A DNA stretch of 64,000 bases, taken from contig JAKCWG010000742.1 of the NCBI GenBank assembly GCA_021464415.1, positions 310,001-374,000 on the forward strand. The letters are read 5' to 3'. Below the pieces are notes generated by a model. The model saw only the letters and a list, made by a program, of their open reading frames with translations, made no database searches and was not told where the DNA came from. The stretch is from Lonicera japonica (lineage: Eukaryota; Streptophyta; Magnoliopsida; Dipsacales; Caprifoliaceae). Positions within the stretch are counted from its first letter, which is position 1; each line of letters opens with the position of its first letter. A program made the translations under genes and the position numbers. Below are positions 1-58,400 of this stretch, piece by piece.

Positions 1-147
1 TGTAATGGAAGAACTTATGTTACACTGTCCAAGTTGCTTCGAATATGTCAATTGGAAACGAAGGAATGTGCTTCACGTTGCTATAGAGCATGAGCAGAAG
101 GCTGTGATTGAATACCTCTTTGAAGTGTGTCCAACCATAGTCGACAG

Positions 148-436
148 TGTTAGAAATGATGATATTGAATGATGATATTCTCCAACATAAATTAGCATTA
201 TTATTTGTAATTATTAAAGTTTAGAATTATTCTTCTTTTCCTTTATTCCCTCCTCCATGTTTCCCTCCTTGTCTCCTCCTTTCTTCCTCATTTTAGGCTT
301 CTTGTTTCCTTCTTTACTTGTATATATATTCATGTCAATTCCATTGTAAAAGCATGAAAAGATTGTAACAATGTAATCCATTATGGAATTCTTGCTCATT
401 ATAATTTCTCTATTTCTTGTGTTGTATAATTTAACA
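148..436 (+). repeat. 5' LTR of LOB-carrying retrotransposon
   Basis: 289 bp beginning TGTTAGAAATG and ending TATAATTTAACA. It matches 2653-2941 with no difference found by eye. It is pyrimidine-rich in the middle, with TATATATATT near 330. Confidence 0.93.
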
Positions 437-448
437 TGGTATCAGAGG
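437..448 (+). promoter_or_regulatory. Primer binding site, initiator-Met tRNA type
   Basis: TGGTATCAGAGG lies immediately 3' of the 5' LTR. The first 11 bases match the usual plant Copia primer site for tRNA-iMet. Confidence 0.85.
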
Positions 449-639
449 ACAACCTCGCCACTAGCCACCACGACCTCGCCACCAACCACCAGCCACCACA
501 CAACCTCGCCACCAAGCCACCACACCTATCACCATTATCAAACAAATCAAATACGCCTCCAAACACTACTCGAATCAGACTTTACGCAGCAAACCTGTTC
601 AAATAAAACCACGTCCAAATAATTATTATTGAAGCATTC

Positions 640-705
640 AGCCTGGCTGGCAAGACCATCAGGTAACCACAGCTTAGTGCAAGGTTCGATTCCTACTAAT
701 AGCAT
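640..705 (+). other. tRNA-like (SINE-type) segment with a B-box match
   Basis: GCCTGGCTGGCAAGACC at about 640 and GGTTCGATTCC at 681 are spaced like the A and B boxes of a tRNA-derived pol III promoter. No cloverleaf or SINE tail could be confirmed, so this may be a decayed tRNA/SINE piece or coincidence. Confidence 0.35.
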
Positions 706-764
706 TTTATTTTTCCTCTATTTCCTTACAAACTGCAACTGCCACATCATTGACACACAAGCGC

Positions 765-1078
765 CACGTGTCAGCCACGCCAGCGCACATGACATCCAGT
801 CAGTGCCACGTGGCATCCAGTCAGCGCCACGTGTCCGCCACGTGACATCCAGTCAGCGCCACGTGACATCCAGTCAGCACCGCGTGGCATCCAGTCAGTG
901 CCACGTGTACGCCACGTGACATCCAGTCAGCGCCACGTGGCATCCAGTCAGCGCCACGTGTCCGCCACGTGACATCCAGTCAGCGCCACGTGGCATCCAG
1001 TCAGTGCCACGTGGCATCCAGTCAGCGCCACGTGTCCGCCACGTGACATCCAGTCAGCGCCACGTGTCAGTCACGTGT
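765..1078 (+). promoter_or_regulatory. Array of 16 CACGTG (G-box) palindromes
   Basis: I count sixteen perfect CACGTG hexamers in about 314 bp. They sit in alternating units of the type GCCACGTGRCATCCAGTCAGC (about 21 bp) and GCCACGTGTCC (11 bp), with one degenerate unit (CCGCGTGG near 880). CACGTG is the core bound by plant bZIP and bHLH (including PIF/MYC) factors, and the flanking GCCACGTG[GT] form fits strong bZIP/ABRE-type sites. The array lies about 500 bp upstream of the LOB-domain start codon. Enhancer activity is inferred only. Confidence 0.8.
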
Positions 1079-1582
1079 CAGCCACGTCAGCGGTTAACGC
1101 TGTTTGCTTGCCGTCAGAATTGACGGAATATTCCAGACACCGTCAGATATATTTACAATTTCACCCCTGTACTTTCTGATATTTCTATTCTAGCCCCTAA
1201 ACCTTCTTATTTTCCTATTCTAACATCAAGAGCCGTTGATCTCATTGCACCACTCATCCACTCGTTCAACTTCCCGATTCTCTCCTCCGTCAATCCCAAG
1301 CAACACCGTCCATTTCCTCAGTCATACCATAACCGACAACCCCTAATCCATACCATAACCGACAACCCGCAAATTCCGTAAACTCCAGACCCTCGCCATC
1401 ATCAAATGCCGACATCTTTTTGCTCCGACCTCGAAATTCGAAATTCAAATTTCGAGATCGGCGCCTTTAACCCTTTCACCAGCTTCCTGCCATTAAAATC
1501 AAAACACACCATCCTCACTGCAAATCACCCAATAGCACCATCCTCACTGCAAATCTCCCATTCAAATCCAATACAAACAGCC

Positions 1583-2677
1583 ATGTCGATCAGCATACGC
1601 CAGCGAGGTACTCCATGTCCTGCCTGCTCTTTTCGCCGCAGAGCTTGTCCTCCTTCTTGTGAATCAGTTAAAATCTTTCCAAATGCGTATCATCGTCGAG
1701 ATTATCACACAATCTTTTCCGTTTTCGGGGTAAAAAGTGTTGAATTCTTTTTACAACACGTACCGGATCACAAACATCGTGAAACTCTCGATTCGTTTCT
1801 CTTTGAAGCTAAGGCAAGAATCCTAAATCCTGCTGGTGGATGCGCTGCCCTCCTTACCTCTCTTGATCAAAAGCTTGAGGCTCTGCAGTCACGAATGACG
1901 GCGTTGGAGGCTCGACTGGACAGCGAGTCTCCCAGGGTTAATCCGTCATTTTCCTTTGTCCCTCCTGCAAGTTCCTCAAGGGCCAATCCATCCGACTCCC
2001 TTGCTCACCCACCAGGCTCCTTCGCTTCTCCATCCGGCTCTGGTCGACGCCGCCACCGTTCGACCGGAAAACTGCCGGAGAAATCTCCAGCCTCCAGGTC
2101 ATTTGCCTACCCATCCGGCTCCTTTACTCACCCATCCGGCTCCTTTGCCTCTCCACCTGGCCCCTTTAACCCTCCTGCAAGTTCCTCAAGGGCCAATCCA
2201 TCCGACTCCCTTGCTCACCCACCAGGCTCCTTCGCTTCTCCATCCGGCTTCTTTACTCACCCATCCGGCTCCTTTGCCTCTCCACCTGGCTCCTTTAACC
2301 CTCCTGCAAGTTCCTCAAGGGCCAATCCATCTGACTCCCTTGCTCACCCACCAGGCTCCTTCGCTTCTCCATCCGGCTCCTTTACTCACCCATCCGGCTC
2401 CTTTGCCTCTCCACCTGGCTCCTTTAACCCTCCTGCAAGTTCCTCAAGGGCCAATCCATCCGACTCCCTTGCTCACCCACCAGGCTCCTTCGCTTCTCCA
2501 TCTGGCCCCTCAGAGAATCCTCTAGAACCTGGGGTTCTTCCGACCCAGGAAGATTTGTTGGAGATCATCTCATGTAGTAAAAGGACGCTTTCAGGATTTG
2601 CTTTCCAAACTCAAGCTGACCGCCCATTTGCCACCTTGAGTTTGAAGGGGGGTGTTAGAAATGATGATATTGAATGA
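1583..2677 (+). CDS. LOB-domain (LBD) protein carried by the retrotransposon
   Basis: LBD proteins are plant-specific DNA-binding transcription factors. From the ATG at 1583 (MSISIRQRG) the zinc-finger C block is CPAC-x6-C-x3-C, exactly the CX2CX6CX3C signature, with Cys at residues 12, 15, 22 and 26. A GAS-like block follows (FSVFGVKSVEFFL, then FEAKARILNPAGGC with the conserved Pro and Gly-Cys). Then comes a Leu heptad stretch (LDQKLEALQSRMTALEARL). No intron interrupts the domain, although many LBD genes have one inside it, so capture from a spliced transcript is plausible. The C-terminal half is a Pro/Ser/Phe-rich repeat of 43 residues. The last residues come from Copia-type 3' sequence and the stop lies in the 3' LTR. 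An upstream in-frame ATG at 1406 would add 59 residues; I prefer 1583 because known LBD proteins start shortly before the C block. Whether it is expressed is unknown. Confidence 0.8.
   Translation: MSISIRQRGTPCPACSFRRRACPPSCESVKIFPNAYHRRDYHTIFSVFGVKSVEFFLQHVPDHKHRETLDSFLFEAKARILNPAGGCAALLTSLDQKLEALQSRMTALEARLDSESPRVNPSFSFVPPASSSRANPSDSLAHPPGSFASPSGSGRRRHRSTGKLPEKSPASRSFAYPSGSFTHPSGSFASPPGPFNPPASSSRANPSDSLAHPPGSFASPSGFFTHPSGSFASPPGSFNPPASSSRANPSDSLAHPPGSFASPSGSFTHPSGSFASPPGSFNPPASSSRANPSDSLAHPPGSFASPSGPSENPLEPGVLPTQEDLLEIISCSKRTLSGFAFQTQADRPFATLSLKGGVRNDDIE
1961..2512 (+). repeat. 129-bp coding minisatellite in the LBD tail
   Basis: Units begin CCTCCTGCAAGTTCC at 1961, 2171, 2300 and 2429. 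The last two spacings are exactly 129 bp. The first is 210 bp because it holds an 81-bp unique segment. All spacings are multiples of three, so the 43-residue unit (PPASSSRANPSDSLAHPPGS and on) stays in frame. Each unit contains smaller CAYCCATCCGGCTCC-like subrepeats. The last unit is truncated. Confidence 0.9.
2641..2652 (+). promoter_or_regulatory. Polypurine tract
   Basis: TTTGAAGGGGGG directly precedes the 3' LTR, the expected plus-strand primer position. Confidence 0.85.
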
Positions 2678-2941
2678 TGATATTCTCCAACATAAATTAG
2701 CATTATTATTTGTAATTATTAAAGTTTAGAATTATTCTTCTTTTCCTTTATTCCCTCCTCCATGTTTCCCTCCTTGTCTCCTCCTTTCTTCCTCATTTTA
2801 GGCTTCTTGTTTCCTTCTTTACTTGTATATATATTCATGTCAATTCCATTGTAAAAGCATGAAAAGATTGTAACAATGTAATCCATTATGGAATTCTTGC
2901 TCATTATAATTTCTCTATTTCTTGTGTTGTATAATTTAACA
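2653..2941 (+). repeat. 3' LTR of LOB-carrying retrotransposon
   Basis: 289 bp, reads identical to the 5' LTR. The LOB-domain frame runs 25 bp into it before its stop codon. Confidence 0.93.
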
Positions 2942-2946
2942 GACAG
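2942..2946. repeat. Target-site duplication GACAG (partner at 143-147)
   Basis: GACAG ends the upstream ankyrin exon half and begins the downstream half. In copy D the uninterrupted sequence is GTCGACAGATTAAT, so the pre-insertion state is known directly. Confidence 0.92.
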
Positions 2947-3133
2947 ATTAATAATTGAGAAGGATAGAGATGGAAACACACCTCTTCATCTGCTTGCTAC
3001 TTCCAATTGTTTTGTACCAAAACTCATACAACATCCTATGGCTGACAAGGGAGCCCTCAACAACAAGGGTTTCACTCCACTGGACTTGGTAATCTACGAT
3101 GATGACGAATCTTCTACGCCAGATCATGCAAAG

Positions 3134-3771
3134 GTAATCCCTTAATCTACGGATGATGCTGAGATTCAATTTACATCTGTGTAAAATAAAGAAGTTACAC
3201 TCACTAATAACCTTCTTTTCCTTATATATATATACAAGAACATTCACACATTATTGTTAAAAAAAATTTGAAATTAAATCTATATAACTTGTACACGCAT
3301 CACATGTGCATGGTTTGCTAGCGTGTACATGTATATATACACAGTTGTAACCCGTACCAAAATCACTATCAACTATTCAAAACTCTGGTAAATGTCAGCT
3401 ACACAATTATTTATCCCTTATACATTGTAAGATTCAAAAACAATTGCCCCTTATGATATAGAGATATTACATATTTAGTCCTTTACTTAATTGTCTTAAC
3501 TTTTCTCAACCTAAAATCTTCTTTCAAGATTAATAACAAAATTAATTTGGTGTGCCCAGTACTTTATTTTGTATCAACAACAAAAGCCTTAGCAGTGATT
3601 TGATCTTCTTGGTTTTAATAACAGAAAAGTCATGTATGAAGTAATTAGTATCCATGTTACATTAGGTGACGTTCGGCTTGAATAATGGAGTGGAAACATT
3701 AATTCAGAGAGAGAGAGAGAGAAACTATGGTCATTTCCATTTTTTTTTAAAGCAATTTTTTCAATTTTCAG
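3134..3771 (+). other. Last intron of ankyrin-PGG copy A
   Basis: Donor AAG|GTAATC and acceptor TTTTCAG|GGTGAAA keep phase 0 between PDHAK and GEIAEELKHV. The intron aligns with those of copies C, D and E (shared TAACAAAATTAATTTGGTG and GAGAGAGAGA stretches). Confidence 0.8.
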
Positions 3772-4368
3772 GGTGAAATAGCAGAAGAGTTGAAACATGT
3801 TGGTGCTATTTTGCACAAAAGAGCTGCTCCTGTTCCTCCTTGGCTTGTTTTTAAATATTTTGACAAGAATTGGTTTGATAGTATAAAGAAAATGACTAAA
3901 AATCACATGATAGTGGCTGCACTCATAGCGACAATAGCCTTTACAGCCGGATTTACGATGCCTGGTGGTTATATTCAAAGTGGCAATCAATATGAAGGGT
4001 TGGCCGTTCTTAGTACAAAATCAGTTGCTTTCCAAGCATTTATTATTTCTGATGCTATAGCACTGCTATTCTCTACTAGTGCTTTATTTATCTACTTAGT
4101 TGGCGCAATTTGTGACGCATTAAAGTTTCGCAACGATGGCCTAAAAGCATATTGTCTTGGATTATTTGCAATAAGTGGCTTGCTTTGCAATATGTTAGGC
4201 CTCGGAGCAATGATAGTTGCTTTTATTACAGGGACATATGCCGTGTTACAACATGCATACGCCCTTGCAATTGGGACCTGTGTTATTGTGTGTTGCGCGT
4301 TTGCCTTACATTCGTTTGTGGTGTTCATCCTGATAAAACCTTTTCTGGAAGGGAATATACATTTTTAA
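3772..4368 (+). CDS. PGG-domain exon of copy A
   Basis: 198 open residues: GEIAEELKHVGAILHKR, a short variable linker (PVPPWLVFKYFDKNWFD), then the PGG domain. Visible features are NHMIVAALIATIAFTAGFTM, MPGGY, the FQAFIISDAIALLFSTSALF helix and GLLCNMLGLGAMIVAFITGTY, about four membrane helices in all. Stop at 4366-4368. PGG domains anchor ACD6/ITN1-like proteins in membranes. The exon has no lesion of its own; its gene is broken upstream by the retrotransposon. Confidence 0.85.
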   Translation, partial: GEIAEELKHVGAILHKRAAPVPPWLVFKYFDKNWFDSIKKMTKNHMIVAALIATIAFTAGFTMPGGYIQSGNQYEGLAVLSTKSVAFQAFIISDAIALLFSTSALFIYLVGAICDALKFRNDGLKAYCLGLFAISGLLCNMLGLGAMIVAFITGTYAVLQHAYALAIGTCVIVCCAFALHSFVVFILIKPFLEGNIHF

Positions 4369-5570
4369 TTTGTTTCGATGAGGCGGGTGGTAAATGTTAG
4401 CAAATTACAATACCGGTCAGTGTTCAAGTTTCTCTATTATTTTAGAGATGTAGTGCATGCCAATAGGCAAATAATCATTATAAGAGGCTAGAAATTACTG
4501 TTTGTTATTTTCCTTTTCTCTTTACCTTGTTCAGTAAGTACGTCCTCTTTTGGGAATTTTTTATTTTTTTATGTTTCCTATACGAAATTCTATGTTATTG
4601 AGGATGAAATATAAATTCTTTTTCTTGCTAAAATTAAATGTCTCATTTTTATAAAAAAATGTTCCTGACCTTGAACCAGCTGCTCCTAGTGAACAAAACT
4701 ATAGGATATTGTGGAAATGGCTGACAATCACTTGTTAGCGTTTGTATTTACAGCTGAATTTATGAAGTCCTTCTACTGTTCTTTAAAGGGCCTTCTGAGA
4801 AAATGTAAAACATGGCCCTTTTATATAATTACATGAATAAGTATAAAATCATTTTAATTTACAATGAAAGAATAATATGGACTTTAACACAAACACGCAT
4901 AAATATTTGAGAAAGATTATACTATGAGCCTTTTGTATACGATGAATTTTATGTGTTAAAAAGTACACAAGGAGAAAGAAATGAACATTTTAGTATAGAA
5001 GACACAAATTTGCTGCTCCAAGAAAAACAAAGTGTGTAATGGATAAAAGATTATGTAGTTCTTGTAGTAAAATATATATATATATATATATTAACTTTTT
5101 TAGAGAGAAAAATAGTACTCTTAACACAAGTTACGGACTATTATAATATTATACACACTAGTTCTGTTGAAGCATCACAATATAAGTACTACAATAGCAA
5201 CGAGTACTTTAGTTCAAAAATAATAATGATATCAAAACTGATATTAAATTAACGATATCAAAGTTCCAGAAAATTTCTATTGTTTTGGATACCAAGCAAA
5301 ATAATTTTACCATTAATAATACCAATGGTGAGGAGTGAATGAATTAACATGCATTGGCGTAGAGACCCATCTCTAAATTGTAAACCTTCCAAAATATAAT
5401 GATTTACAATAACAACAAATAATAGTGTACTACTATTAAGTCTATATAACCAACATTGTAAAAACAATATTAACAAAGTAATAATGCCAAAATAAAATCT
5501 TACGCTTGTCAAAACGAACTATAAAAAATATTTTATAAATGAAACGATAGTACCATTAACTTGATAGGGA

Positions 5571-10983: not shown

Positions 10984-11595
10984 GATAGATCCTGAGTTGT
11001 ATAGTGCAGCCACTACCGACGCTAATCTAGACTCGCTCACTCAATTTAAGGTCAACTTAAAGCTGTGAAACACATTGCTTCACATAGCCTCCCAATTTGG
11101 GCAACTTAAAGCTGTGAAACACATTCTCTCTTATAATCAAGAGCTATTACTCCAGCGCAATGAAAAAGGCGAGTGTGCGCTTCACCTAGCTGCGAGGGGT
11201 GGGCACTCAGCTGTAGTGCGAGAGCTCATCAACTGCGCAAAAGAACGGCCACCTAGTCCCGGAGATATTGAAGAAGGTGGCATCAACAGGGTGGAGTGGT
11301 CAAAGGATAACATCATGAAATCTGAGAGTTATCGCAATGGCTACACGCCTTTACACGAGGCTGTGCGATCTCGTCACGTTGATATTGTTAAAATGTTAAT
11401 TGAAGAAGATCCGGAATACTCGTATACTCCCAAATACTGGAAGGAAATGCACGAGACTCCACGTACTCTACCCGGCTGCCAGAAGAGGATTCGATGAATT
11501 GGTGGAGGTGATATTACAAAATTGTAAATCACATGCTTTCAGTGGTCCAAATGGTAAAACAGCTTCACATGGGGCCATAATTTCCAACAGCAAAA
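10984..11595 (+). pseudogene. Copy B exon 1, ankyrin repeats, frameshifted
   Basis: Starts MIDPELYSAATTDANLDSL, aligned with MEPSLYNAAITGNIEVV of copy D, then hits TGA at 11066 inside a duplicated 24-bp block (CAACTTAAAGCTGTGAAACA at 11053 and again near 11101). The +1 frame then reads LLHIASQFGQLKAVKHIL, CALHLAARGGHSAVVREL and YTPLHEAVRSRHVDIVKML. A second shift near 11458 moves RRGFDELVEVILQNC to another frame. The donor is AACAGCAAAA|GTACGT. Confidence 0.8.
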
Positions 11596-12533
11596 GTACG
11601 TATTTTTGTCTTCTGTTGATTCAACATTTATTATGTGGCATATTTTCACCATATAGTATAATTACTCTCACCAGTGAGGGGGTGGAGTGTCAAAAAGAAA
11701 AGAAAAAAAAAGAATATATTTATTATTGTGCTTCAATGCTGGCCTAACACTTACTATTGTACTATAAAGTTATTAATAGTGAAGTCAATTTTTTTTTAAA
11801 TCTATGTTCTAATTCCTTCTTTTTTGTTTTTTAACAATCACCCAAAATTACATGTAATATCCTCTCTTTTTTTCTTTTTCCCTTTTTATCTGTTTTTAGA
11901 TAAGGGCTTGTTTCGATCAGCTGTGTAAATACTTTTTACCAAATTTAAGGCAAAAAATGAGCTGGGCTAGTGTATTCTTTCCTTTATGAGTAATTCGTAT
12001 TATATGGACTGGGCTGGTGTCTGTCGGCCCAGACCTAAAGCCATCTTTACGGCAAGAGTTAGAAAGCCCTCGAGACATAAAAATGTCAAAAGTTAAGTTC
12101 GAAGTAAATCTGACATCTGTCAAACTATTTAATTAGCCAGACAATACAATGTCTATCATTCGTTTCTAACATATGTTGGACTATATTCATTATACCGTCT
12201 AAAGGTATTTTTTTTTTAAGTTTATGGTGGGACGATATGATGTTATCCGTCTGGAGCTCCATTAATGGGACGATATATATATATATATATGTATATTTAT
12301 ATTGTTTATCGTATGAGATTAATGAATGTCATCTCGAAGTAGGATGATATTCATTATATCGTCTAAGCTCATTTTACATTTTATGTCGTGCAGTTTTTTC
12401 CATATTGATAGGGTAAAATTTTCTCTCTTTAATTAGACTACACTTTTACACTATGCAGGAGAGATCGCCATAAGTCCATCCCTTTCATAACCCGTCAAAC
12501 CTTATTATACTATTTTTTTTCCTTTTTATATAG

Positions 12534-13060
12534 GATCCGCAGAATTATTGTTGAACTAGAGGACTGAAATTGAGAGATTAAAAGATTGTAACAATCAAAC
12601 ACCGCTGCATTTTGTTGCACACCTTGGTTATGCCGATTTGGTTTGCCCGCTATTACTTTCAGATAAGTCTGTCGCATACCTCGAAGACTATACGGGAAAT
12701 AAAGCTATTCACATAGCAGCTAGTCAAGGTCATGTATCATTGTTGAAAGAAATTATGCCACAGTGTCCAGGTTGTTGGGACATGACGGGTTGTAATAATC
12801 AAAATATTCTGCACATTGCAGTGGAGCATCAACAGAAAAATGTGAGTGAATATATCCTAGAAGAATGTCCAATAATTGACGCTCTAATAAATCAGGAAGA
12901 TGATGATGGCAATACACCTCTTCATTTGCTTTGTATTTCCAAATATTCTCTGCCCCAACTCATATTACATCCCACGGCTGATAAGGGAGTCTCAAATTCT
13001 CGAAAAATGACGCAGTTGGATTTGGTAACTAACAATGTGGACATACCTACGGCAACAAAG
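12534..13060 (+). pseudogene. Copy B exon 2, ankyrin repeats with in-frame stop
   Basis: The acceptor TATATAG precedes GATCCGCAGAA in the phase used by copy D, but TAG follows at 12557-12559. Thereafter the frame is open: TPLHFVAHLGYADLVCPLL, KAIHIAASQGHVSLLKEIM, NILHIAVEHQQKNVSEYIL, NTPLHLLCISKYSLPQLIL. The exon ends GCAACAAAG|GTGCGT. An alternative acceptor after TAG (12559) would skip the stop. Confidence 0.8.
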
Positions 13061-14432
13061 GTGCGTGCATTAAACATCATATATACTTCATTATTATTTT
13101 TAATTTTCTTTCTTTCTTTCTTCTTTAATTTCTGTTTCATATATACATATGTTTATGTTATTGCATGTAATAATGTTAAATTATACTTCACTTTCTTTCT
13201 AATTAAGAGTCTATATTTAGCAATTCACATTTTTTAAGAATTCACTAGCATCATTATAATCAATGATTTAGAACAAAATTTATATTTACCAGAAATTTTT
13301 GTATGTTGATTATGGTCTAGAAAGAAAAGTGACCCCTTGAAGTTTATTACCTTAAACATTCAAATATTTGTACTTTACGCCAAACTAACACAATTCTATC
13401 CAAATCTGAAAATAAATAAATAAATAATTGTTGATCGATATGATACTATTTGACCTATAATTTTACTCTTTTTTTAATTTTTCCTTTTTCTTTTAAGATA
13501 TCACTTTCTGTTCTCACAACAGAGTAGCTGTATTAAACACTCGCAAAAAAAAAAAGAAGATTTTTTTATATATATATATATACCATTGATTGTGTAATGA
13601 AATTAATGCATTCAAAAAAAATGAAAAATAAAATAAAATTCGAACATACTCTTAATTAGGAATGCAAGTACGCAACAATAGCAAACAAGCATATGTCCAA
13701 GATTAATCATCTAATTGTCATCCCAAATGATAAACTCAATCTGACAACCAAACGAGCTAATATATTTTTTTTTTTGATAAATTAATCTTTAAACATACGA
13801 GTATCAATCAATATATATACCCACTTAGTAGGATAGACTACAACCAATTAATGATCGATTGAATTTGTATATATGTATATATAACATACAACATACAGAT
13901 GGACGACAAAGCCATTTGTATTACGTGGTTTTTATTTGGGTTACTTGAGCATTTAAATTCTAAATGTCCAAGTTGGCTCTGAAATCTAAACAAAGAATAT
14001 AACATGTGTCACGTTTTTGTGTGATCTAATAATATTAAAAAAAGAAAAAGAACATGTGTCATAAAAATGTACTTTTCTCTAACCAATTAGTGGAAAAACG
14101 CAAAATGTTCGTCCAAGTTTTCATAAAACAATTCAAAGTTATTTTTATTTTTATTTTATTTTTTTGGATAAGAGGGTTGTTTATATATGTTTTATATTAG
14201 CTCCGCTTTAAAGAATTTAGGTGATAATATTTATGTGCATTTTCTATATTTGAAAAAAAAAGAATTTTTAAATAGACCCACTAAAACTTGTTTCTTATTC
14301 TAATTATAAATAACTTTCAACTCACACCACTATAATTCTCAATTTCCTTTTAGCTCACCCCTCCTTATTTTTAATTGCCAAACAAAACCTTAAAACTTGG
14401 CTTTAAAATCTTTCTACCTAGCCAATCTATCA
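13061..14432 (+). other. Intron 2 of copy B before the Copia insertion
   Basis: AT-rich intronic DNA with poly-A/T runs and TA microsatellites. I see no gene or further element in it. Confidence 0.6.
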
Positions 14433-14645
14433 TGTTAGAATATACTGTATATATTATGTTTCCTATTCCTAATCTACTTTTCATATTGTATTGATTGTGT
14501 TCCCATTGTAGTTTCCTAAATTGTATCCTAGATTAGGGTTTGTCTCTAGTATATATATTATCTCTATTGTACATTCTTTATCAATTTAAGAAATACAATT
14601 CTTTTATTCTTCTTCTTCAATCTCTTTCGTTTCTATTTCGTAACA
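14433..14645 (+). repeat. 5' LTR of Copia element
   Basis: TGTTAGAATATACTG...TTTCGTAACA, 213 bp. Confidence 0.95.
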
Positions 14646-14657
14646 TGGTATCAGAGG
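14646..14657 (+). promoter_or_regulatory. Copia primer binding site
   Basis: TGGTATCAGAGG directly after the 5' LTR, tRNA-iMet type. Confidence 0.88.
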
Positions 14658-15328
14658 GATTCATCCTCCTCTAGAACCAATCTTTCACCTAATTTTCAAT
14701 CAAATCCAAATCAAAAACCCTAGCATCATCAACCCAAGCAACCAACCAATCAAAAATCATAGCTTTATCCAATTGTCGATCCACTGTTCAAAGCCATACA
14801 GAACCTCGGTTAACCCAAAAATTATACCAAAAGCTTCGTCCTTTCAATACGAACCAAACCCCGTTTAAAACACCCCATTCGGACACCTAACGCGTTCTCA
14901 CGCGCCTCGGCAAGATCCCCCAGTCGCGCCGCCCAGATCCACGCGCACCTTCCTTTTCTTGATCAATCGTCACCTCGATACAGAGCCCTAAACCACCCAT
15001 ATAATAGACCAAAATCTTTGTCTCTTCAATACGAACCAAACGCCATCAAAATCACCCCGATCGGAGTTGGCACGCTCCCACACGCGCCTATGGAACATCG
15101 CCCAGTCGCGCAGCCCAGATCCACGCGCCACTGCCCTAAAAACCCTAAACCGGTTTTTTTCTGAACCGGTTTTTACTCCCTTGACCGGTTCACCTATCTA
15201 TAACCCGGTTTTTTTCACTCTAAGACCAGTTCCCCACTAAATCAGCTGCTCCGGATCCGTTTCTGGCCTCAGATTTCTCAGAATCAGATTATTTTTTGCA
15301 GCTACTGTGTTATCCTACACGTTTCTCA

Positions 15329-18300
15329 ATGGAAAAGCATGAGTTTTCGCGTCCGATTTCTGTCGTTCTCAATGGCACCAATTATGTTCAATGGTCCCAA
15401 GCCATGACTAGTTTCCTAAAGTCTCGTAAGTGCTGGAGAATTATTACTGGAGAAGTTGTTAAGCCAATCAAGAAAACCGATGAAACTGACGATAAATTTA
15501 ATGATCGCCTTGATGATTGGGAAAGCAAAAATGGTGATATCATCACATGGGTTCGGAATACCTCTATCTCTCGTATAGGGCAGCAGATTGGTCGTTTTAC
15601 CACCGGGAAGGAAGTCTGGGATTTTCTACAATCGAGGTACACTCCAAAGGATCTCTCTCATCAATACCAGTTGCTTACTGCTTTACATTCTAAAACCCAA
15701 CAACCCGAGCAATCAATTGATGATTATTTATCCGACCTTCAAGCTATTTGGGATCTGCTAGCCCAATCCGAACCTTCCTTTTGTGAGCATGATGCAAAAA
15801 AATTTGAAACGTACCGCGATAACCAGCGTGTTATCACCCTTCTAATGGGACTTCACGATAAGTTCGAACCAGTTCTGGCTGCTCTACTCCATCGCAATCC
15901 TTTACCATCTCTTGATAATGTCACGACAGAGCTTCTCTCTGAAGAAACTCGGTTTGCCACTCGGACCCACAACTTTAATGCTGTCTTAGCCGTTCCGAGC
16001 TCGAAACCTACCAAAAACTCGTTTTCTCGAAAATGTTCGTACTGTCATGCCACCACCCATATGCTACTAAAGTGTCCAATTAGGACGTGTTTCTTTTGCA
16101 AAAAGGTGGGACCAGGTCACTTTCAAGCAGATTGTTATAAGAACCCATCCAGGAGATCCTCCTCTAGATCATCCTCTAACACCATCACTGCTGCCACCAC
16201 TGATTCTTCTGAAGTAGACATTTCTACTGCACCTGTGACTCTAGCTGATATCACAGCTCTTCTAAAACAGGTTACATCCTCTTCTGGTTCTGCTATGGCC
16301 ACCACTACAGGTATATCTTGGTTTTTTGATTCCGGCTGCTGTAATCATATGACTTCTGATCCTACTATTTTCACCTCTAAGAGTCACAATTCTCATACAC
16401 CCACCATTAAAACTGCTGATGGCTCTCAATTATCCGTTAGTCATGTTGGGACGGTTACTACTCCTAGCCTCTCTTTACCTGCTACCTTTCATATTCCAAA
16501 ATTGACTATCAACCTTATTTCTGTTGGTCAACTATGTGATCTTGGACTGACTGTTATATTTTCCTCTTCTGGTTGTCATGTGCAGGATCCTCAGACGGGA
16601 CAAATTATTGGGATAGGCCGTAAAGTTGGCCGCATGTTCGAGCTCATACACCTCCATACCTCACCCACTTCTATTGTTACATCCACACCACCTGTTACAT
16701 CCCCACCAACTGTTTCTTCATTTGAGTTGTGGCATTCCCGTTTAGGACATGTGTCTTTTGATCGTCTTCGTTCTATTGTGTCATCTGGTCAGTTAGGGTC
16801 AATAAAGTCTGAGAAATTGTCTTGTTTATCTTGTCAACTTGGAAACAACCGGCATTATGTTTTAATAAAAATGATTCTATTTCTTCAGCACCATTTGATC
16901 TTATTCACTCTGATGTTTGGGGACCCTCTCCACATTCTACCATGGGGGGGTTCAAAATATTTTGTTATCTTTTTGGATGATTATAGTCGTTTTACTTGGA
17001 TCTATCTTATGAAAATTCGTTCAGAATTACCCCAAATCTATTTTAATTTTGCTCGCATGATTCAAACTCAGTTTTCTCGTCCAATAAAAATTTTTCGAGC
17101 TGATAATGCCATGGAATACAAAGGAACCTCATTTCTTAAATTTCTCAGTGAACAAGGCACTGTTCCTCAATATTCTTGTCCCGGTACATCTCAACAAAAT
17201 GGTCGTGCTGAGCGCAAGCACAGACATATTCTTGATACTGTTCGCACACTTCTTATCTCCAGTAGTTGTCCTGAAAGGTTTTGGGGGGAAGCAGCACTTA
17301 CTGCTATTTACACTATCAATCGTATCCCTATTCCCTTTCTTCAGCATCAATCTCCATATGAGAGACTTCATGGTACCTCTCCTGATTACAATTTCTTACG
17401 AGTCTTCGGTTGTGCTTGTTTTGTGTTACTCCAGCCTCATGAACATTCTAAATTGGAACCACGTGCTCGTCTTTGTTGCTTCTTGGGGTATGGGATAGAA
17501 CATAAAGGTTATCGGTGTTGGGATCCTATTTCAAAACGCTTACGGATTTCTCGTCATGTTGTCTTTTGGGAACATAAAATGTTTTCCTCTCTATCCAAAT
17601 TTCATGTCCTTGAAGAATTCCCACTTCCGTTCTTTACTCATTCCTCTCTTGACCTTTCCACCTTTGAATTTGAGGCTCCAGTTATCACATTCCCACAAGA
17701 ACCTGAACCAGAAGTCACACCATCACCACCTCAACCTCTCCGTCCAACACCTCCTGCACCATCCTCACCTGATGTTATTTCTTCCAACGAGCTTCAACAT
17801 ACGGCACCTCCCAATGATGATGTCTCGCCTGCTGATCCTGTCATAACTCCACCACAACGACAGTCCACTCGGGTAAGAGAGCTCCCTCATCACCTTCGTG
17901 ATTACCATTGTTATTCTACCATGATATCTCACTATGAACCTTCATCCTATAAGGAAGCTAGTACTAATCCACTTTGGCAGCAAGCTATGACAGAAGAATT
18001 ACAGGCTTTAGATAAAGTGCATACCTGGGATCTTGTGACTCTTCCTCCTGGAAAATCTGCAGTTGGGTGTAAATGGGTGTATAAAATTAAGACATGATCT
18101 GACGGTTCAATTGATCGATACAAAGCTCGTCTCGTAGCCAAGGGGTTCAATCAGGAGTATGGTATAGACTATGAAGAAACTTTCGCTCCTGTGGCTCGAA
18201 TGACGTCTGTTCGCAGTCTTATTGCTATTGCTGCTGTTCGCAAATGGGACCTTTTTCAGATGGATGTCAAAAATGCCTTTCTTAATGGGGATCTGACAGA

Positions 18301-19405
18301 AGAAGTATATATGAAACCACCTCCCGGTAATTCACACCAGTCCACTCAGGTCTACAAACTTCGTCGTGCCCTATATGGACTCAAGCAAGCTCCTCGAGCT
18401 TGGTTCGCAAAATTTAGCACTACCATCACAAAGCTTGGTTATTCCTCCAGTTCGTCAGACTCAGGCCTCTTTATTCGAAAGACAGATTCTGGGACTATTC
18501 TTCTTCTCCTCTATGTGGATGATATGATAATTACTGGGGATGATATTTCTGGTATCTCAGATCTCAAACAATCTCTTAGTCAGTTTTTTGAAATGAAGGA
18601 TCTTGGTCGTCTCAACTACTTCTTAGGGCTGGAAGTCCTTTCTGATTCAACAGGCTACTATTTATCTCAGGTGAAATACACGTCTGACGTTCTGGCTCGT
18701 GCTGGTCTCACTGACTGTAAAAATGCATCTACTCCATTGGACACCAATGTTAGACTTACTCCGTTTGATGGTACTCCTCTCTCTGATGGTATTTTATACA
18801 GACAATTAGTTGGCAGTCTGGTTTATCTTACTGTTACTTGCCCGGATATTGCTTATGCTGTCCATGTTGTCAGTCAGTTTATGGCTGCTCCTCGCTCTAC
18901 TCATTTTGATGCTGTTATTCGGATTCTTCGTTATCTCAAAGGGACAGTTTTTCATGGGCTTCACTACTCCTCAAAGTCATCTCTTGTATTACGGGCTTAC
19001 TCTGATGCAGATTGGGCCGGTGACCCTACGGATCGTCGGTCTATTACTGGTTACTGTTTCTTCCTCGGGGACTCTCTTCTTACTTGGCGTAGTAAGAAAC
19101 AGTCTGTTGTTTCTCGATCAAGCACTGAGGCTGAATATCGCGCTCTTGCTGATACTTCACAAGAACTAATATGGCTTCGACGCCTCCTCGATGAATTGGG
19201 TGCTCCTCAAGACTCTGCCACTACTCTTTATTGTGACAACCGCAGTGCCATTCAAATCAGTCACAATGACGTCTTTCATGAACGAACTAAACACATTGAG
19301 ATTGATTGTCACTTTATTCACCAGCATATTCGCAATCTGTACATTTGCCTTATGCCCGTATCTTCAGATGACCAGCCTGCAGATTTCTTCACTAAAGCTC
19401 ACTAG
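15329..19405 (+). pseudogene. Copia gag-pol polyprotein, one stop and a compensated frameshift
   Basis: From MEKHEFSRPISVV: gag (WSQAMTSFLKSRKCW; zinc-knuckle-like CFFCKKVGPGHFQADC), protease (WFFDSGCCNHMT), integrase zinc region (LWHSRLGHVSFDRL) and core (IFLDDYSRF, FRADNAMEYKG, QQNGRAERKHR), reverse transcriptase (QMDVKNAFLNGDL, LLYVDDMIITGDD) and RNase H (YSDADWAGDPTDRRS, SSTEAEYRAL, CDNRSAI), ending FFTKAH. Damage: an in-frame TGA at 18095-18097, where an Arg CGA would become TGA by a C-to-T change. There is also a one-base loss near 16845-16853, compensated by an extra G in the G-run at 16944-16950. The ~35 residues between are out of frame and include the first integrase catalytic Asp region. 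The rest of the frame is open. Probably inactive in its own mobility. Confidence 0.92.
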
Positions 19406-19463
19406 CCTAGCCGTTTCCAAACATTGATTTCCAAACTCCAGCTGGTCTCTCACTTACCACCTT

Positions 19464-19478
19464 GAGTTTGAGGGGGGG
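19464..19478 (+). promoter_or_regulatory. Copia polypurine tract
   Basis: GAGTTTGAGGGGGGG directly before the 3' LTR. Confidence 0.85.
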
Positions 19479-19691
19479 TGTTAGAATATACTGTATATAT
19501 TATGTTTCCTATTCCTAATCTACTTTCCATATTGTATTGATTGTGTTCCCATTGTAGTTTCCTAAATTGTATCCTAGATTAGGGTTTGTCTCTAGTATAT
19601 ATATTCTCTCTATTGTGCATTCTTTATCAATTTAAGAAATACAATTCTTTTATTCTTCTCCTTCAATCTCTTTCGTTTCTATTTCGTAACA
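19479..19691 (+). repeat. 3' LTR of Copia element
   Basis: 213 bp. Four substitutions against the 5' LTR: T/C in CTTTTCAT, A/C in TATTATCT, A/G in TGTACATT, T/C in TTCTTCTT. Confidence 0.95.
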
Positions 19692-20320
19692 TATCCCAAG
19701 CTAAAGTCTAAACTATGCATCATCTCATTTCCACATAGAAAATCCCAAATCACAAAGGGTACACAATACATGCACACACATATATCTATACACACACGCA
19801 TATAATCTGTTAGTATATAGTAATCTAAAAATCCAAAATCACTTTTTAATAGCCATGTATAATTTTCATTTTTTTAACAACTGCACCTAAAGTGATTCGA
19901 ACACGAGATCTTCCGTTAATAGATTATCCCTCATAGGGACCTAGTGAACCACTAGGCCAACCCCATGTGGTTTGTAGAAGTTGAAGAGGCAAAATTTCAA
20001 AATAGATTACTCCAGTTCTAGGTGGGCGAAATTTCCATTTAATTATTTGAAAATAATGGATGATGATCAGAGAATCAAAGTGAGAGATGCGCATAGGGAA
20101 GTCAGTGAATCATGATTGAATCAGAGTAGTCGAAATAATCAATTTTGGGGGATTATATTTCAAAAAGTTCGAATTAAATACAGAACTCTCTTTCAATTAA
20201 AATTAAGAAGGTTGAATATGCCTTTGTAATCATATATGTGTGTGTATATATATATATATATGTATGTATATATTTATATACATGTATATCTATTTGTTGC
20301 CTATTTTCTTAAACAATGGA
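19692..20320. other. Intron 2 segment between Copia and CACTA elements
   Basis: AT-rich intron DNA with a probable SINE on the minus strand (19858-19973) and TG/TA microsatellite near 20237-20290. No gene seen. Confidence 0.6.
19858..19973 (-). mobile_element. Probable tRNA-derived SINE
   Basis: On the minus strand TTGGCCTAGTGGTTCACTAG (A-box-like TGGCCTAGTGG) is followed about 45 bp later by GTGTTCGAATC (B-box-like) and then an A-rich tail. Order and spacing fit the tRNA-related head of a plant SINE. No target duplication was identified and the body is short. Confidence 0.55.
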
Positions 20321-29704: not shown

Positions 29705-30260
29705 AATGAAATTGCTGAGGAATTGAAGAATGCTGGTGCATGCTACTGTTGGCTTGCCCTGTCAAAGAAAAGTTGTCAAAAAGGAAATAGATGAAACCCA
29801 AATAAAATTTTTTTGGGAAGTGGCTAAAACACATATAGTAGTGACGACACTCATTGCAACCATAACCTTCGCGGCTGGATTTACCATGCCAGGTGGGTTT
29901 ATTCAAAGTGGTAGCCCACACCAAGGAATGGCGGTTCTTACAAAATCCACTGCTTTCCAGGCATTTATCATATCTGATACCATAGCCCTTGTACTCTTGA
30001 CTAGTACCATATTTGTGTACTTCGTTGCATCGATTTATCATGATAAGTATCGTATCATGATGTTAGTGATGGCTGCTATCTATCTCAATGTATTTGCCCT
30101 GTTGGCGATGATGGTTGCATTTGTTACGGGGGTATATGCAGTGTTAGCAAATTCATTAGCCCTCGCAATTGCCACATGTCTAGTTGGGTCTTGCTTCTTT
30201 CTATTTTATATTGCTGTGATAAAGAGGTTTCTTTCGGATGGAAAGTATAAGGGATTATGA
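29705..30260 (+). pseudogene. Copy B exon 3, PGG domain, frameshifted near its start
   Basis: AATCAG|AATGAAATTGCTGAGGAATTG encodes NEIAEELKNAGA in the expected phase, but the PGG body is open only in the next frame (HIVVTTLIATITFAAGFTM, MPGGF, AFQAFIISDTIALVLLTST, LAMMVAFVTGVYAVLAN), to a stop at 30260. The frame change lies in the linker around 29735-29790. The domain itself is well preserved. Confidence 0.8.
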
Positions 30261-32276: not shown

Positions 32277-32422
32277 ACGGCGAAAGACAGATTACGGGTT
32301 TTGTAAAAAAAAAAAAAAAAATTCACTTTGTAAGTATTCTCTCCCTTTGTAAATTACTTTTCCTACTTATTATTATTTTTTTTTAGGTGGAAAATTTTAT
32401 TCGAGATCACCCTTCCGGGCTT

Positions 32423-35400
32423 ATGCGCGGAAATTTGTACATTGATCTTCGCATAAGTCCACCAAGAGGCCAACCACTACCAAGGCATCCTAGTCCTTCA
32501 CCTACTCCTTCCGAAATGGCTGACGAGGATAATGAGTCAAATACCGGAGAAAATAATAATCACGATCCTCCGGTTCGAACAATGAGGGATTATCTTCAAC
32601 CACCTCGGGCGACGTCTAATTCTTGCATCATTCTCCCCACCGGACAAGCGGGAACATTCTCCTTTAAGCCAGGTATGCTTCAACATATCCCCTCTTTTCA
32701 TGGTATGGAATCCGAAAATCCGTACTTACATTTGAAAGATTTTGAGGAAGTTTGCTCCACGTTTCGTGAGGCAAACACCAATGAGGAAGTAATGCGTTTA
32801 AAACTTTTTCCTTTCTCCTTAAAAGATAAAGGAAAATTATGGTTGAATGCTCTAAGACCGCAATCTATTCGGTCTTGGCAAGTACTTCAATCGGAGTTTT
32901 TAAAAAAATTCTTTCCCGTCCATCGGACCAACGCTTTGAGAAGGGCGATATCCAATTTTTCGCCAAAAGAAAATGAAAGTTTTTACAAATGTTGGGAAAG
33001 ATACAAGGAACTTTTAAACGCATGTCCTCACCATGGCCACGAAACATGGAGCCTTGTAAGCTATTTTTATGAATCACTCACTCCCGCCATGCGCACGTTT
33101 GTGGAAACGATGTGTAATGGAAATTTTTTGAGCAAAAGTCCGGAGGAAGCTTTGTTGTACTTTGACGAAATAGCCGAAGGTGCCCAAAATTGGAACACCT
33201 ACACGGACGAGGTTAAGGGTAAAGTTTCCGAGAGGGGGGGTTTGTACCAATTGTCAAAAGGTGATGACATTGAGTTAAAATTTCTTCAATTGTCAAAGAA
33301 AGTCGAAGCCATGGAGTCTTGTAAAATGAGGGAAAGCAGTGTAGGTACTAGCACCGTTTGTGTCATTTGTGAGAAGGTGGGACATTCCACGGAGGAGTGT
33401 CACACAATTCCGGCCTTCAAAGAGGTCCTTCAAAGTCCCTCACAAGTCAATGCCTTGAACTCGTATCCTAGACCACACAATGATCCATTTTCTCAAAGGT
33501 ACAATGAAGGGTGGAGGAACCATCCTAATTTTAGTTGGGGGGGAAATCAAAATACTCATCAAAATTCGAATGCAAATTCCTACCAACCAAGACCACCTCC
33601 ACCCCAAAACAACTCTTTTGGTCAAGCAAACCCAAACCCAAATTCAAATTTGGAGACTCTTTTGCGGCAGTTTGTAGACAAAACCAATAGAGATGTTAGT
33701 GATTTGAAAATTCAAATGTCCAAACTCACCACTGCTTTAGCAACCCAAGAAAAAGGAAAGTTTCCGGCCCAACCAATAGCTAATCCTATAGGGCAAGCCA
33801 TGATAGTTGAAGGGGAGTCGAGTGGGAATGTAGAGGAGTTAAAATCCATCACAACCCTTAGAAATGGAAAGATGATTGACAAAACTATAGTTCCTAAGGC
33901 CCAAACGCCGGTGGACATAGCCGAGTCAACACCAAGTGAAGGAGTAGAAGAAGAAAAGAATGTGAGGGAAAAGGAGGAGGAAAAGAGGAATGAGAAAGAG
34001 GACATAGAAAAAATCAGAAATAACATCAAAGTCCCTTTTCCCGAAAGGTTAAATCAACCTCATAAGGAAAATTGCAACACCGAAATTCTTGATGTGTTTA
34101 GGCAAGTCAAGATCAACATTCCATTGCTTGACGCGGTCAAGCAAATACCTTCATATGCTAAATTTCTCAAAGATTTGTGTACCACAAAAAGAAGGTTGAA
34201 TGTTAAGAAAAAAGCATTTATGACAGAGCAAGTGAGCTCTATCATGCAAGGCACTCGTATTCCAAAATTTAAAGATCCTGGTTGCCCAACCATTTCATGT
34301 TTAATTGGCAATTGTCGCATAAAAAATGCTTTACTTGATTTGGGAGCTAGTGTTAATGTGCTTCCTTTTTCGGTGTACCAACAATTGGGGTTAGGAGAGT
34401 TGAAACCCACCAAAGTGACAATTCAATTAGCGGATCGCTCCGTTAAGATACCGAGAGGGATAATAGAGGATGTTCTTGTGCAAATTGATAAATTCTACTT
34501 TCCCGTTGATTTCATTGTTCTTGATATGCAACCGGTAGCAAATCCCGCTAATGAAATTCCTGTCATTTTAGGAAGACCATTTCTTGCCACATCTAATGCT
34601 ATCATTAATTGCAAGAATGGAATTGTTAAATTGGCTTTTGGAAACATGACTCTTGAGCTAAATGTGTTCTCTTTAAGCAAACAACAAAATGATTTTGATG
34701 AAGAAAGTGAACATGTGAACATGATAGAGTCATTAGTCCAAGATCATTTTAATAATACTTACGATTTGGATTCAATGGAAGAGAATTTAACCACTTCCAA
34801 TGAATTCGATGAGTGTTTGCAAGTGTTTTCCTTACTTGATGATAAGGTTCAGGATCCGAAGGAGCAAAATGGGAGCACATCCGATCCAACACTAAAGCTT
34901 GAGGGACAAATGGAGCTCAAGCCACTGCCAAGCAACTTGAAGTATGCTTTCCTAGGTGCTTCCAGAACCTACCCTGTGGTAATCTCTTCCGAACTCTCAA
35001 AAGAGCAAGAGGTGAGGTTGGTAAGTATGCTTAATAAACATAAGAAAGCTTTTGGTTGGACACTAGCTGACCTCCAAGGGATTAATCCTTTAATTTGCAC
35101 TCACAAAATCCACTTGGAGGAAAATGCTAAACCATCTAGACAATTTCAACGCCGTTTGAACCCAAACATGCAAGAAGTTGTAAGAAATGAGGTATTGAAA
35201 TTACTAGATGCGAAAATCATTTATCCAATCTCTGATAGCAAATGGGTGAGTCCAACCCAAGTTGTACCAAAGAAATCCGGGCTTACAGTAGTAAAAAATG
35301 AAAAAAATGAATTAATACCCCAAAGAGTCACCACCGGGTGGCGAGTGTGCATTGACTACCGTAAGCTTAATGAAGTAACACGTAAAGATCATTTCCCGCT

Positions 35401-55438: not shown

Positions 55439-58400
55439 ATGGAGCCGAGCCTTTACAATGCTGCCATTACTGGCAATATCGAGGTGGTCGTTACAACTCT
55501 ATCTGCACATCCATCACTAATAAGACAAGTCAACTCAGACGGTGATAGTGCGCTTCACCTTGCCGCGAGGGGAGGACACACAGGTGCAGTGCGTGTACTC
55601 ATTGACTTTGCAAAAACGCTTGGCCAATATATTGAAACCGGAATAAGGGATGAAGGGCTGGGTATCTTACGGCATAGGAATAAGAACAATAATACGGCCT
55701 TACATGAGGCCACTCGGTACAATCGCATTCCAGTGGTGAGCATGTTACTTGAAGAAGATGATCAGAGCACCGATGAATATAGAAACGAGTCGGGGGAGAC
55801 TCTATTGTACATGGCTGCTAGCAGAGGATTTCATGATTTGGTGGATGTTATTGTAAAAGCTTGTAGATATCCGGCGTGTGGTGGCCCAACCGGTAGAACA
55901 GCTTTACACGCGGCCGTGATTTGCAATAGCAGAGGTATGAAATTTGATATTTAACAAATTTTTATACCAGCGTCAAAGCTGCCCTATTTTCCTAGCTTCT
56001 TCCACTTAATGTGACTTTAAGGGTTTTTTTTTTTTTTTCTTTTGTCAAGAGTCTTTCGGTGCAATTTTTCCGCTTGCTTAAAATTTAAAAGATGTGTTCC
56101 CTAAGACAAATACTACTTCACAATATTTGCGATGTGGATTTGAATTGAAGTTGCCCAATCCGATGTCGGTTTTAGAATTAGGATCCAATCCGAATCATAC
56201 CACCACATCTGAATAATCCAATAGATCGAGTTCAATTTAAAATATTAGATTGGATCGGTTTCCAATCCGCTTTGTTTGTATATAGCAATCAATTACAATC
56301 AAAATAATAAGTTATATATATATAGTAGTACTCATAGGAGTGGCCACTTGTAGGTTTTCATGAAGATTCAAAGTTACATACAATTAATAAATATAAGAAT
56401 TATGAAAATGAAAAGCACAAATAAATTAATAAGAATGAAGAAGGAAAGCTTATTGTCTTGTGGTGATGTTCCATCTCAAATTATATTTTGACACGTGACA
56501 ATATTAAAACTAAACATATAAAATAATCGGATTGGTTTATGAGATTTGTAAAAATGAAACCATTCAAATAATTATGTTGGTTTATTAAAAATTGGATCCC
56601 AATTCAAAACATAAATCTTGAATCAGTCGATTTTTTTGATTTGAAGTGGATCTTGAACACCCTATGTCTAGGGGCCTCAAACTTAAAACAAATAAAAATT
56701 CCAAACTCAAGGATTGGATTCTATTTTTAAAATTTAGTATGTGATTATTCATGAAAAAGAAAAATTGATTGCACGTACCATAATTTAGGATGTCCCTAAT
56801 ATTTTACAAGAATAAAATTACAGGTCAACTTGTTATGACTCACTTTTTTTCCTAATCCAATCCATTTAGGCCTATTGGTCATTATATTAACGGGTAATTT
56901 CTTGTTCCCAGAGTGGTTTTAGCTTTGACCAATAACGATATTTGCTTTAGTGGTGTTTGATTTTCAAGTATTTTTAATAGAAAAAAAAATTAATATGTAG
57001 AGGCCACAAAAGACATCCAAAATAGAGATTTTCATAATTATATAAAAATATATATATAACCATTATATATGTATTCTTTTTTTTTTCAGATTGTGTTCGA
57101 AAAATATTGGAGCAGCGGCAATATTCAACAGCGGATGATTATTCCAAATTACCAATATATTATGCTGCACATCTTGGTTTTGCAAACGTGGTAAACGAAT
57201 TTTTATCTGTGGACGAATCATTTGGCCACGTGGCATGTGATGAAATGGGTAATAACGCACTTTTCGTAGCGGCTATTGAAGGTCATATATCTGTAATGCA
57301 ACAATTTATATGGCGCTGTCCAAGTTATCCGGATATGTTGGTTGATCATAGTGGAAGAAATGTGCTTCACGTTGCTATAAAGCATGAGCAGAAGGCTGTG
57401 ATTGAATATCTCTTACAAGAGTGTCCAACGATAGTCGACAGATTAATCATTCAGAAGGATGGAGATGGAAACACACCTCTTCATCTGCTTGCTGCTTCCA
57501 ATTGCTTTGTACCAAAACTCATACAACATCCTATGGCTGACAAGGGAGCCCTCAACAACGAGGGATTCACTCCACTGGACTTGGTAATCTACGATTATGA
57601 CATATCATCTACACCAGATCATGCAAAGGTAATCCCTTAATCCACGGATGATGTTGAGATTCAATTTACATCAGAATTTACACTCACTAGTAACCCTCTT
57701 TTCCATTAAAAAAACAAAGTGATTACAAAAAGAGTCGCACATAATTTATAAAAAAAAATTGAAATTAAATCTATATGAGTTTAACAAGCATCGCATGTGC
57801 AAACTTAGGTAGTGTAATCCGTGCCAAAGCCACCATCAACCGTGCCACAAAAATATTTATCCCCAAATCATTTTTTTTTTCAAATTTCACACCACCATTA
57901 TTTGATGTATTTTCAAAATATCAAATAAAAGAATTTAACAATTTTTTCTCTATTATTCTACTAATCTACTCTCCCTGGGTCGCTTTTTTTTTGTCTTTCT
58001 CTCTCATTAATTTCTTTTTAAATTTTAGAATACATTAACTTCTTATTTTTAAAATTTAAAATACATTAACTTTAAATACAAAAATTAGAAATTATTAAAC
58101 TTTTATATTTAAAATCTACTTATCGATACCTATAAATTAAGATCCATTATGACTACAAAGTTATTTGTCAACGATAAAAATTCAAAAAAAGCTGTTGCAA
58201 CCCACTGTATCTTTTTCTAAACCTATTTTCTCCATATAACTTACATTTATATCATTTTACACAATTTATTGTTTCAAATCCAACTGCAACCTAATTGTTC
58301 CTTTAGCTTAGAAAATAATAATAATATATACATACACACTAGGTATTGCCTATGCTGAACGGTACGGGTATATAAAAAATATTAACAGTTAGAAAATAGT

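Follow-up and report, generated by a model that had tools for sequence, protein, structure and literature searches.

Within a 64,000-nucleotide stretch of the Lonicera japonica genome (contig JAKCWG010000742.1, forward-strand positions 310,001 to 374,000), referred to here as the window, a small long terminal repeat (LTR) retrotransposon carries an open reading frame (ORF) with a LOB domain of the LBD transcription-factor family. By sequence comparison the LOB frame is carried by at least three element types, the window element being one. We consider it moderately probable that this frame would be an accessory gene of Lonicera LTR retrotransposons, derived from one old capture, selected in its domain and passed among at least three types of both superfamilies (Ty3 and Ty1, or copia), with its protein binding element or host DNA as a regulator. 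The features of the window element are the following.

143..147, no strand: target-site duplication (TSD) GACAG, left copy, 5 bp
148..436, plus strand: 5' LTR, 289 bp, TGTTAG...TTTAACA, identical to 2653-2941
437..448, plus strand: primer-binding site (PBS) TGGTATCAGAGG, read directly, adjoining the 5' LTR end
760..1092, plus strand: tandem array in the leader, 21/32-bp units containing CACGTG
1583..2677, plus strand: LOB-domain ORF, 364 codons plus stop; its final codons enter the 3' LTR and the original C-terminus is gone
1613..1903, plus strand: LOB domain, protein residues 11-107; PF03195, and Ramosa2 5ly0 by sequence and fold
2111..2510, plus strand: 129-bp tandem repeat within the ORF, 43-residue PSGSF-rich unit
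2645..2652, plus strand: polypurine tract (PPT) AAGGGGGG, immediately before the 3' LTR at 2653
2653..2941, plus strand: 3' LTR, 289 bp, identical to 148-436
2942..2946, no strand: TSD GACAG, right copy, 5 bp
57354..57612, plus strand: insertion-free paralogue of the interrupted ankyrin-gene exon (empty site), from alignment to the joined flanks

Paired LTRs, TSD, PBS and PPT are all present and identify the element as an LTR retrotransposon. Apart from a 208-codon frame that overlaps the LOB ORF, its interior holds no other ORF of at least 100 codons, and neither gag nor pol was recognised in the ORF listing (the Pfam scan covered the LOB ORF only), so that the element, having no gag-pol of its own, is filed as non-autonomous. 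Both LTRs have TG...CA ends and show 0 differences across 289 bp, from which the insertion is judged to be young. Substitution in grasses proceeds at 1.3e-8 per site and year, and if this rate applies the insertion would be less than about 0.4 million years old. Furthermore, when the element flanks are joined they give a gapless 93% alignment to 57354-57612, hence the empty site is visible within the same window: the element has broken an exon of an ankyrin gene of which an uninterrupted paralogue is found there. A preliminary description of this DNA, made from its letters, had called the element young and non-autonomous, and the identical LTRs, the TSD, PBS and PPT and the lack of a further sizeable ORF bear this out. 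The leader array at 760-1092 is rich in CACGTG, the G-box core, which may represent binding sites or mere repeat expansion. A tRNA-like stretch near 640-700 was ruled out, as no tRNA was found in 1-4000, and a search of the LTR against a phage collection gave no match, which is uninformative.

Against the Pfam LOB profile PF03195, whose cut-off is 24.2 bits, the window ORF scores 73.3 bits (2.6e-20), and the match covers positions 1-96 of the 99 in the profile. The solved Ramosa2 LOB domain (5ly0) is likewise matched in sequence (2.4e-15). The CX2CX6CX3C zinc motif is exact (CPACSFRRRACPPSC); across 21 aligned rows three of its cysteines are invariant and the fourth is kept in at least 90%. 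Profile score and zinc motif together uphold the earlier view that this is a true LOB domain. In Foldseek, the two top matches of the modelled domain were 5ly0 chains (E 8.9e-5 and 2.8e-4); the model is middling (mean predicted local distance difference test, pLDDT, 66; root-mean-square deviation 8-9 Å and template-modelling score 0.42-0.50 against these chains) and lends weak support to the predicted presence of the LOB fold in the window protein. The match is not due to chance, because the same LTR recurs in the genome and one copy chosen by its LTRs has the same ORF.

In LBD proteins the canonical GAS block reads FGASN and DPVYGC, and the class I coil follows the pattern LX6LX3LX6L. FGASN and DPVYGC are present in most of the 24 rows from host LBD genes, some of which vary (FGVS, FGIS, FGKS); the element LOBs have FGVK.. 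and NP..GC in place. Their leucines form an LX6LX6L heptad, with Met or Val where the coil pattern has its third Leu. A GAS-like block and Leu heptads had been proposed: the heptad stood, and the letters of the GAS block proved to be replaced. On these motifs the element LOBs are best described as a divergent branch of the LBD family.

In a genome search with the window LTR, 989 first-look candidates were obtained, of which 40 were scored. All 40 are full length and 99-100% identical; they comprise 16 same-strand pairs (32 matches, window included) and 8 matches without a scored partner. With 16 LTR pairs and scored matches at least 99% identical, the window LTR family is young. The pair on contig C5 (L051), picked by its LTRs, carries in a 1.1-kb stretch the same open LOB frame as the window copy, with no mismatch and one gap over 1,097 aligned columns. 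This agrees with the earlier suggestion of a family that spreads an LBD-like protein, the LTR recurring in the genome together with the frame, and the search for further LOB-bearing copies was answered by L051 as well as by LOB profile matches. The distance between LTR starts is 3.1-3.6 kb in the 15 other pairs vs 2.5 kb in the window pair. Compared with the C5 copy the window copy is 820 bp shorter from LTR to LTR, a loss that is only partly placed, the part of C5 that was read being just 1.1 kb long.

2564..2570, plus strand: deletion junction (approximate); the window copy diverges after EDLLE and the C5 copy continues in frame, EDLLEHP

Thus, the window copy breaks off where L051 reads on in frame, and on this alignment it is a very recent deletion derivative in which the C-terminal part of the protein has been lost.

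A possible helper for the small elements is found in the same window.

14433..19692, plus strand: copia element that shares LTR ends, PBS and PPT region with the window element, from sequence comparison

It is near-complete: its 214-bp LTRs are 98.1% identical, and two adjoining frames (957 and 435 codons) make up gag-pol. The PBS TGGTATCAGAGG recurs in it, and a 63-bp block of the window element (2598-2660, the PPT region) is 86% identical to its 3' end. This copia is a candidate source of the trans-acting machinery that would move the small elements.

In order to place the LOB frame in the genome, a PF03195 profile search was used; it yielded 1605 first-look candidates before scoring; the best 150 were then scored, and all of them lie above the family cut-off. 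Ranks 1-24 (110-148 bits) look like ordinary LBD genes. Ranks 25-150, 126 matches at 80-87 bits, form a separate tight score group apart from these 24 host LBDs and are dispersed over contigs C1 to C9 and others; a stop falls inside the LOB match in 7 of the 126. At 73 bits the window copy scores under the best 150 of 1605. No PF03195 match was found in 14 control genomes. Twenty-two of the 126 element-type matches were read (L025-L050, four occurring twice), 20 of them with 10 kb of surroundings, and the LOB domains of L031, L038 and L050 reach 79-84 bits against PF03195. The frame is open from the LOB domain through a C-terminal motif in 17 of the 22. In an alignment of 14 proteins that motif (...DWTALGDI....ILNF.ADD...) is recognisable in 13, and the start region is alike, with M.NT in most rows.

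Carrier types were assigned by collinear DNA homology of the 20 ten-kilobase loci; LTR pairs are settled for the loci named as having them, and for the remaining loci none was settled within their 10 kb. The small element, described earlier as the carrier of the frame, is not the sole one, for the frame is also found antisense in Ty3 and copia elements. In type I loci (L031-L036, L043, L049) a 3' LTR of ~0.95 kb is followed by LOB and then by pol on the opposite strand. Indeed, L031 has its LOB at 4858-5559 (plus strand) between the 3' LTR (3285-4234) and an opposite-strand pol frame that is open across the 1169 codons available, and the same order is seen in L032 and L035.

L031 pol domains, opposite to LOB (Pfam): reverse transcriptase 193-352, RNase H 414-541, RVT_3/RNase_H 601-723, integrase 814-981

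L031 has both a second RNase H between RNase H and integrase and an antisense ORF between pol and the 3' LTR, as in Tat/Retand elements. Its large antisense ORF is the LOB frame, and smaller ORFs are listed there as well. On this organisation the type I carriers appear to be Tat/Retand-like Ty3 elements. The pol frame has no stop in L031, L032, L035 and L036 (986 codons compared). L033 is without such a pol frame and is a short type I derivative with both LTRs (97.8%), TSD ATGGT and PBS TTGGCGCCGTCTGTGGGA. Neither the very short repeats of L033 nor the 3.4-kb pair of repeats in L041 served to define element ends.

In type II loci (L037-L042, L045-L047) LOB is antisense to copia gag, which lies opposite LOB as Retrotran_gag_2 in L037 and L038 by Pfam and as a gag-like ORF in L047 by look; a GAG-pre-integrase piece is opposite LOB in L040. 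Type III comprises small elements with LOB in sense, namely L044, L048 and the window family, L051 being placed by its ORF. The LTR ends of L048 are not settled, and L050 is loosely type I-like. The settled pairs of types II and III, besides that of the window, are:

L037: LTRs of 1.6 kb, 98.9%, no TSD
L038: LTRs of 1.6 kb, 97.4%, TSD TATAC
L042: LTRs of 1.6 kb, 93.9%, TSD ACTTC
L039: LTRs of ~0.18 kb, 96%, TSD GACGG
L047: LTRs of ~0.18 kb, 98.9%, TSD ATTTC
L044: LTRs 91%, TSD GAGTA

Hence in seven read copies (window, L033, L038, L039, L042, L044 and L047) the LOB frame lies within an LTR pair with a target duplication. Moreover, type I and II loci (without L050) have in common ~250 bp upstream of the LOB ORF, a stretch that fits a cassette moved with its putative promoter. 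The type II element L047 (C167:284400-294399) lies on the same contig as the window, ~21 kb upstream of it.

The origin of the element LOBs was approached with a tree of 54 LOB domains, in which 30 element-type and related rows are set apart from 24 host rows by a single branch with 100/100 support; the host rows here and below are the 24 host matches among the 150 scored. In the midpoint-rooted drawing this branch measures 0.54 + 1.15 changes per column; type II comes off first, followed by I and then III, with several forks open. No element LOB has an identity above 0.39 to any host LBD among the 24, the nearest being L010. Since the element LOBs form one clade this far from the host LBDs, the capture looks old, not recent, and a single old capture followed by transfer between elements would fit best. 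The preliminary description had proposed the recent capture of a spliced LBD mRNA; the one long branch and the identities rule out a recent capture from a living host LBD among those compared, and the search for a donor gene found none above 39% identity among the 24. Its further argument, that the domain has no intron, carries little weight, as 18 of the 24 scored host LBDs also reach profile position 95 or beyond; the remaining 6 stop at 88-90, and L017 perhaps reaches the profile end by reading into an intron.

Named relatives of the LOB protein come from Lonicera macranthoides in 86 of 89 protein matches; the other three, P0001, P0068 and P0074, lie on short contigs, as do the further relatives P0090 and P0091. 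In P0090 (1351-bp contig) ~16 residues are missing inside the LOB domain, by splicing or deletion, and the LNFDADD-type C-terminal motif is kept. Four L. macranthoides gene models (P0013, P0019, P0050 and P0051) join LOB to a 2OG oxygenase, ABC transporter or BTB domain; the joins in P0013, P0019 and P0050 were scanned, and the BTB-LOB join occurs in one LguiA and one LguiB model. These fusions represent either annotation running into elements or real chimeras.

Selection on the LOB domain, a check called for earlier, was then measured as the ratio of nonsynonymous to synonymous substitution (dN/dS) by Nei-Gojobori, given as medians and leaving out L030, which has a stop inside the domain. Within types the LOB medians are 0.38 (I), 0.21 (II) and 0.28 (III), and between types 0.25 (I-II), 0.35 (I-III) and 0.39 (II-III), hence 0.21-0.39 throughout. 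For the C-terminal part, compared without the window copy, L027, L042, L043 and L048 (truncated or shifted), the medians are 0.57 within I, 1.48 within II, 0.76 for I-II, and 0.80 and 1.21 against III. When fixed I-II differences are counted (without L050), the ratio is 0.25 for LOB vs 0.71 for the C-terminal part. Furthermore, across all types LOB has 58, 46 and 76 variable sites at codon positions 1, 2 and 3, and the C-terminal part 63, 52 and 52. The seven type I copies whose pol gives a median of 0.14 have 0.36-0.37 for LOB. Together, these values suggest that the LOB domain looks constrained and the C-terminal part much less so.

Several observations weigh against a selected accessory gene. 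For LOB against type III, fixed differences give ratios of 0.64 and 0.90, which are not low, although type III is small and diverse and synonymous sites are far diverged. The 22 copies were chosen by LOB score, out of 126 matches that themselves lie within the best 150 of 1605 candidates; such a choice favours copies with an intact domain and depresses the ratio (omega). L051 and the window copy are the only two found independently of that score, and fixed between-type differences are less exposed to this bias. The C-terminal part is repeat-rich and poorly aligned, which makes it an imperfect neutral control. Moreover, 5 of the 22 read copies are broken, L030 by a stop in the domain and L027, L042, L043 and L048 by an early end; three of seven type I pol frames are interrupted by stops (3 in L034, 5 in L043 and 2 in L049); and the window copy is itself without the C-terminus of the LOB protein.

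The main rival to the accessory gene is passive hitchhiking, in which the LOB frame would be a captured remnant with no role, copied because it lies between LTRs. Non-autonomous elements need no coding capacity in order to move, the window copy is young and truncated, and many genes have been captured by LTR elements in sorghum (PMC7264820); the five broken copies point the same way. Constraint on LOB across lineages at dS about 0.5-0.8 is, however, not what a role-less remnant would show, nor is the ratio of 0.25 for fixed I-II differences, and LOB has been retained in three element types and in both orientations, with an alike start region (M.NT in most rows) and the C-terminal motif in 13 of 14 rows. 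We regard this explanation as unlikely, yet it is the strongest of the alternatives.

A second possibility, which we rate as improbable, is that the protein would be an LBD mimic directed at the host and would alter the state of the cell, for example its proliferation, where retrotransposition can reach the germ line. The captured gene does come from a family of developmental regulators, and its DNA-binding half is constrained while the remainder drifts, but the domain is strongly diverged from the host LBDs, sharing no more than 39% identity with any of the 24 compared. It is very improbable that the LOB cassette would be a separate mobile unit nested in different retrotransposons: the block common to types I and II starts ~250-300 bp ahead of the ORF, and DNA homology can be detected as far as about the end of the LOB domain, yet its position is alike within each type, and no terminal repeats or TSD were noticed at the block edges in the alignment, no systematic search having been made. 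Finally, growth of a host LBD subfamily by ordinary duplication with retrotransposons inserted nearby, in favour of which the relatives in L. macranthoides carry hypothetical-protein annotations of the kind given to host genes, deserves next to no credence, as it is contradicted by LOB frames inside LTR pairs with target duplications in the seven read copies and by matches dispersed over contigs C1 to C9 and others.

Returning to the accessory gene, we propose that an LBD transcription-factor gene would have been captured once, long ago, and that its DNA-binding and dimerising domain would have been kept by selection while the gene was passed among at least three kinds of element from both superfamilies. 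The Ty3 and copia carriers would hold LOB antisense with the shared upstream stretch as a putative promoter of its own, and in the small elements, of which the window copy is one, LOB lies in sense and would probably be read from the LTR. Most likely the protein would enter the nucleus, dimerise via its leucine coil and bind element DNA or host DNA; once bound, it may regulate element transcription or integration, in cis and in trans. We advance more tentatively, as a possibility short of an even chance, that the captured gene and its upstream region would form a mobile regulatory cassette that moved between Ty3 and Ty1 elements and serves carriers and their parasites as a shared regulator in cis and in trans, perhaps with element-borne LOB genes outnumbering the host LBD genes.

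Extra ORFs of plant LTR retrotransposons, often antisense, are long known, and the origin and function of most are unknown (PMC7264820). In Retand elements antisense ORFs (aORF-3R) are typical, with a TRP28 domain in 97% of clusters (PMC11963269), and Ogre/Retand elements have a second RNase H between RNase H and integrase (PMC6317226). Type I carriers resemble the Retand/Tat aORF-3R arrangement (PMC11963269, PMC7264820) in that the ORF is antisense between pol and the 3' LTR and a second RNase H is present, but their large ORF has a plant transcription-factor domain and not TRP28, and the LOB frame is also carried by copia elements and, in type III, lies in sense. Among 121 angiosperm genomes, 15 gained domains were described, all in Gypsy and none in Copia elements (PMC9289625); these Ty3 gains include an orchid N6-methyladenosine (m6A) demethylase domain and a B3 domain in Aegilops tauschii. 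The likeness is that a host domain is fixed in an LTR element, B3 being also a plant transcription-factor DNA-binding domain, whereas the LOB domain is found in both superfamilies. LOB is not named in the text of the domain-gain section of that paper, and no report joining a LOB domain and a retrotransposon ORF was found among the papers listed from the open-licence PMC literature (main text).

Maize Bs1 and the LTR-captured genes of sorghum (PMC7264820) also carry host gene sequence, usually in sense like the window copy; unlike them, the LOB frame is old, widely copied, common to element types and apparently constrained. Retroviral antisense genes such as that of human T-cell leukaemia virus (HTLV; PMC11963269) offer a possible analogy, as an element-encoded nuclear regulator, with no homology claimed. 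As the LOB ORF, common to Ty3 and Ty1 elements, encodes a recognisable transcription factor with a solved relative, its role is directly testable. Surveys of the LBD gene family in Lonicera should take note that 126 of the 150 scored LOB matches are element-type by score (22 read), and that they are also exposed to gene models joining an element-type LOB to other domains.

The rest of the window holds, by look, a cluster of genes encoding ankyrin repeats together with a C-terminal membrane portion (1-4368, 11069-13237, 29727-30260, 49363-49776, 55379-59791 and 61525-61637), which we take to be ACD6-like; the copy at 1-4368 is the one disrupted in an exon by the window element. At 32387-37804 an open ORF of 1805 codons has the appearance, again by look, of a Ty3-type gag-pol.

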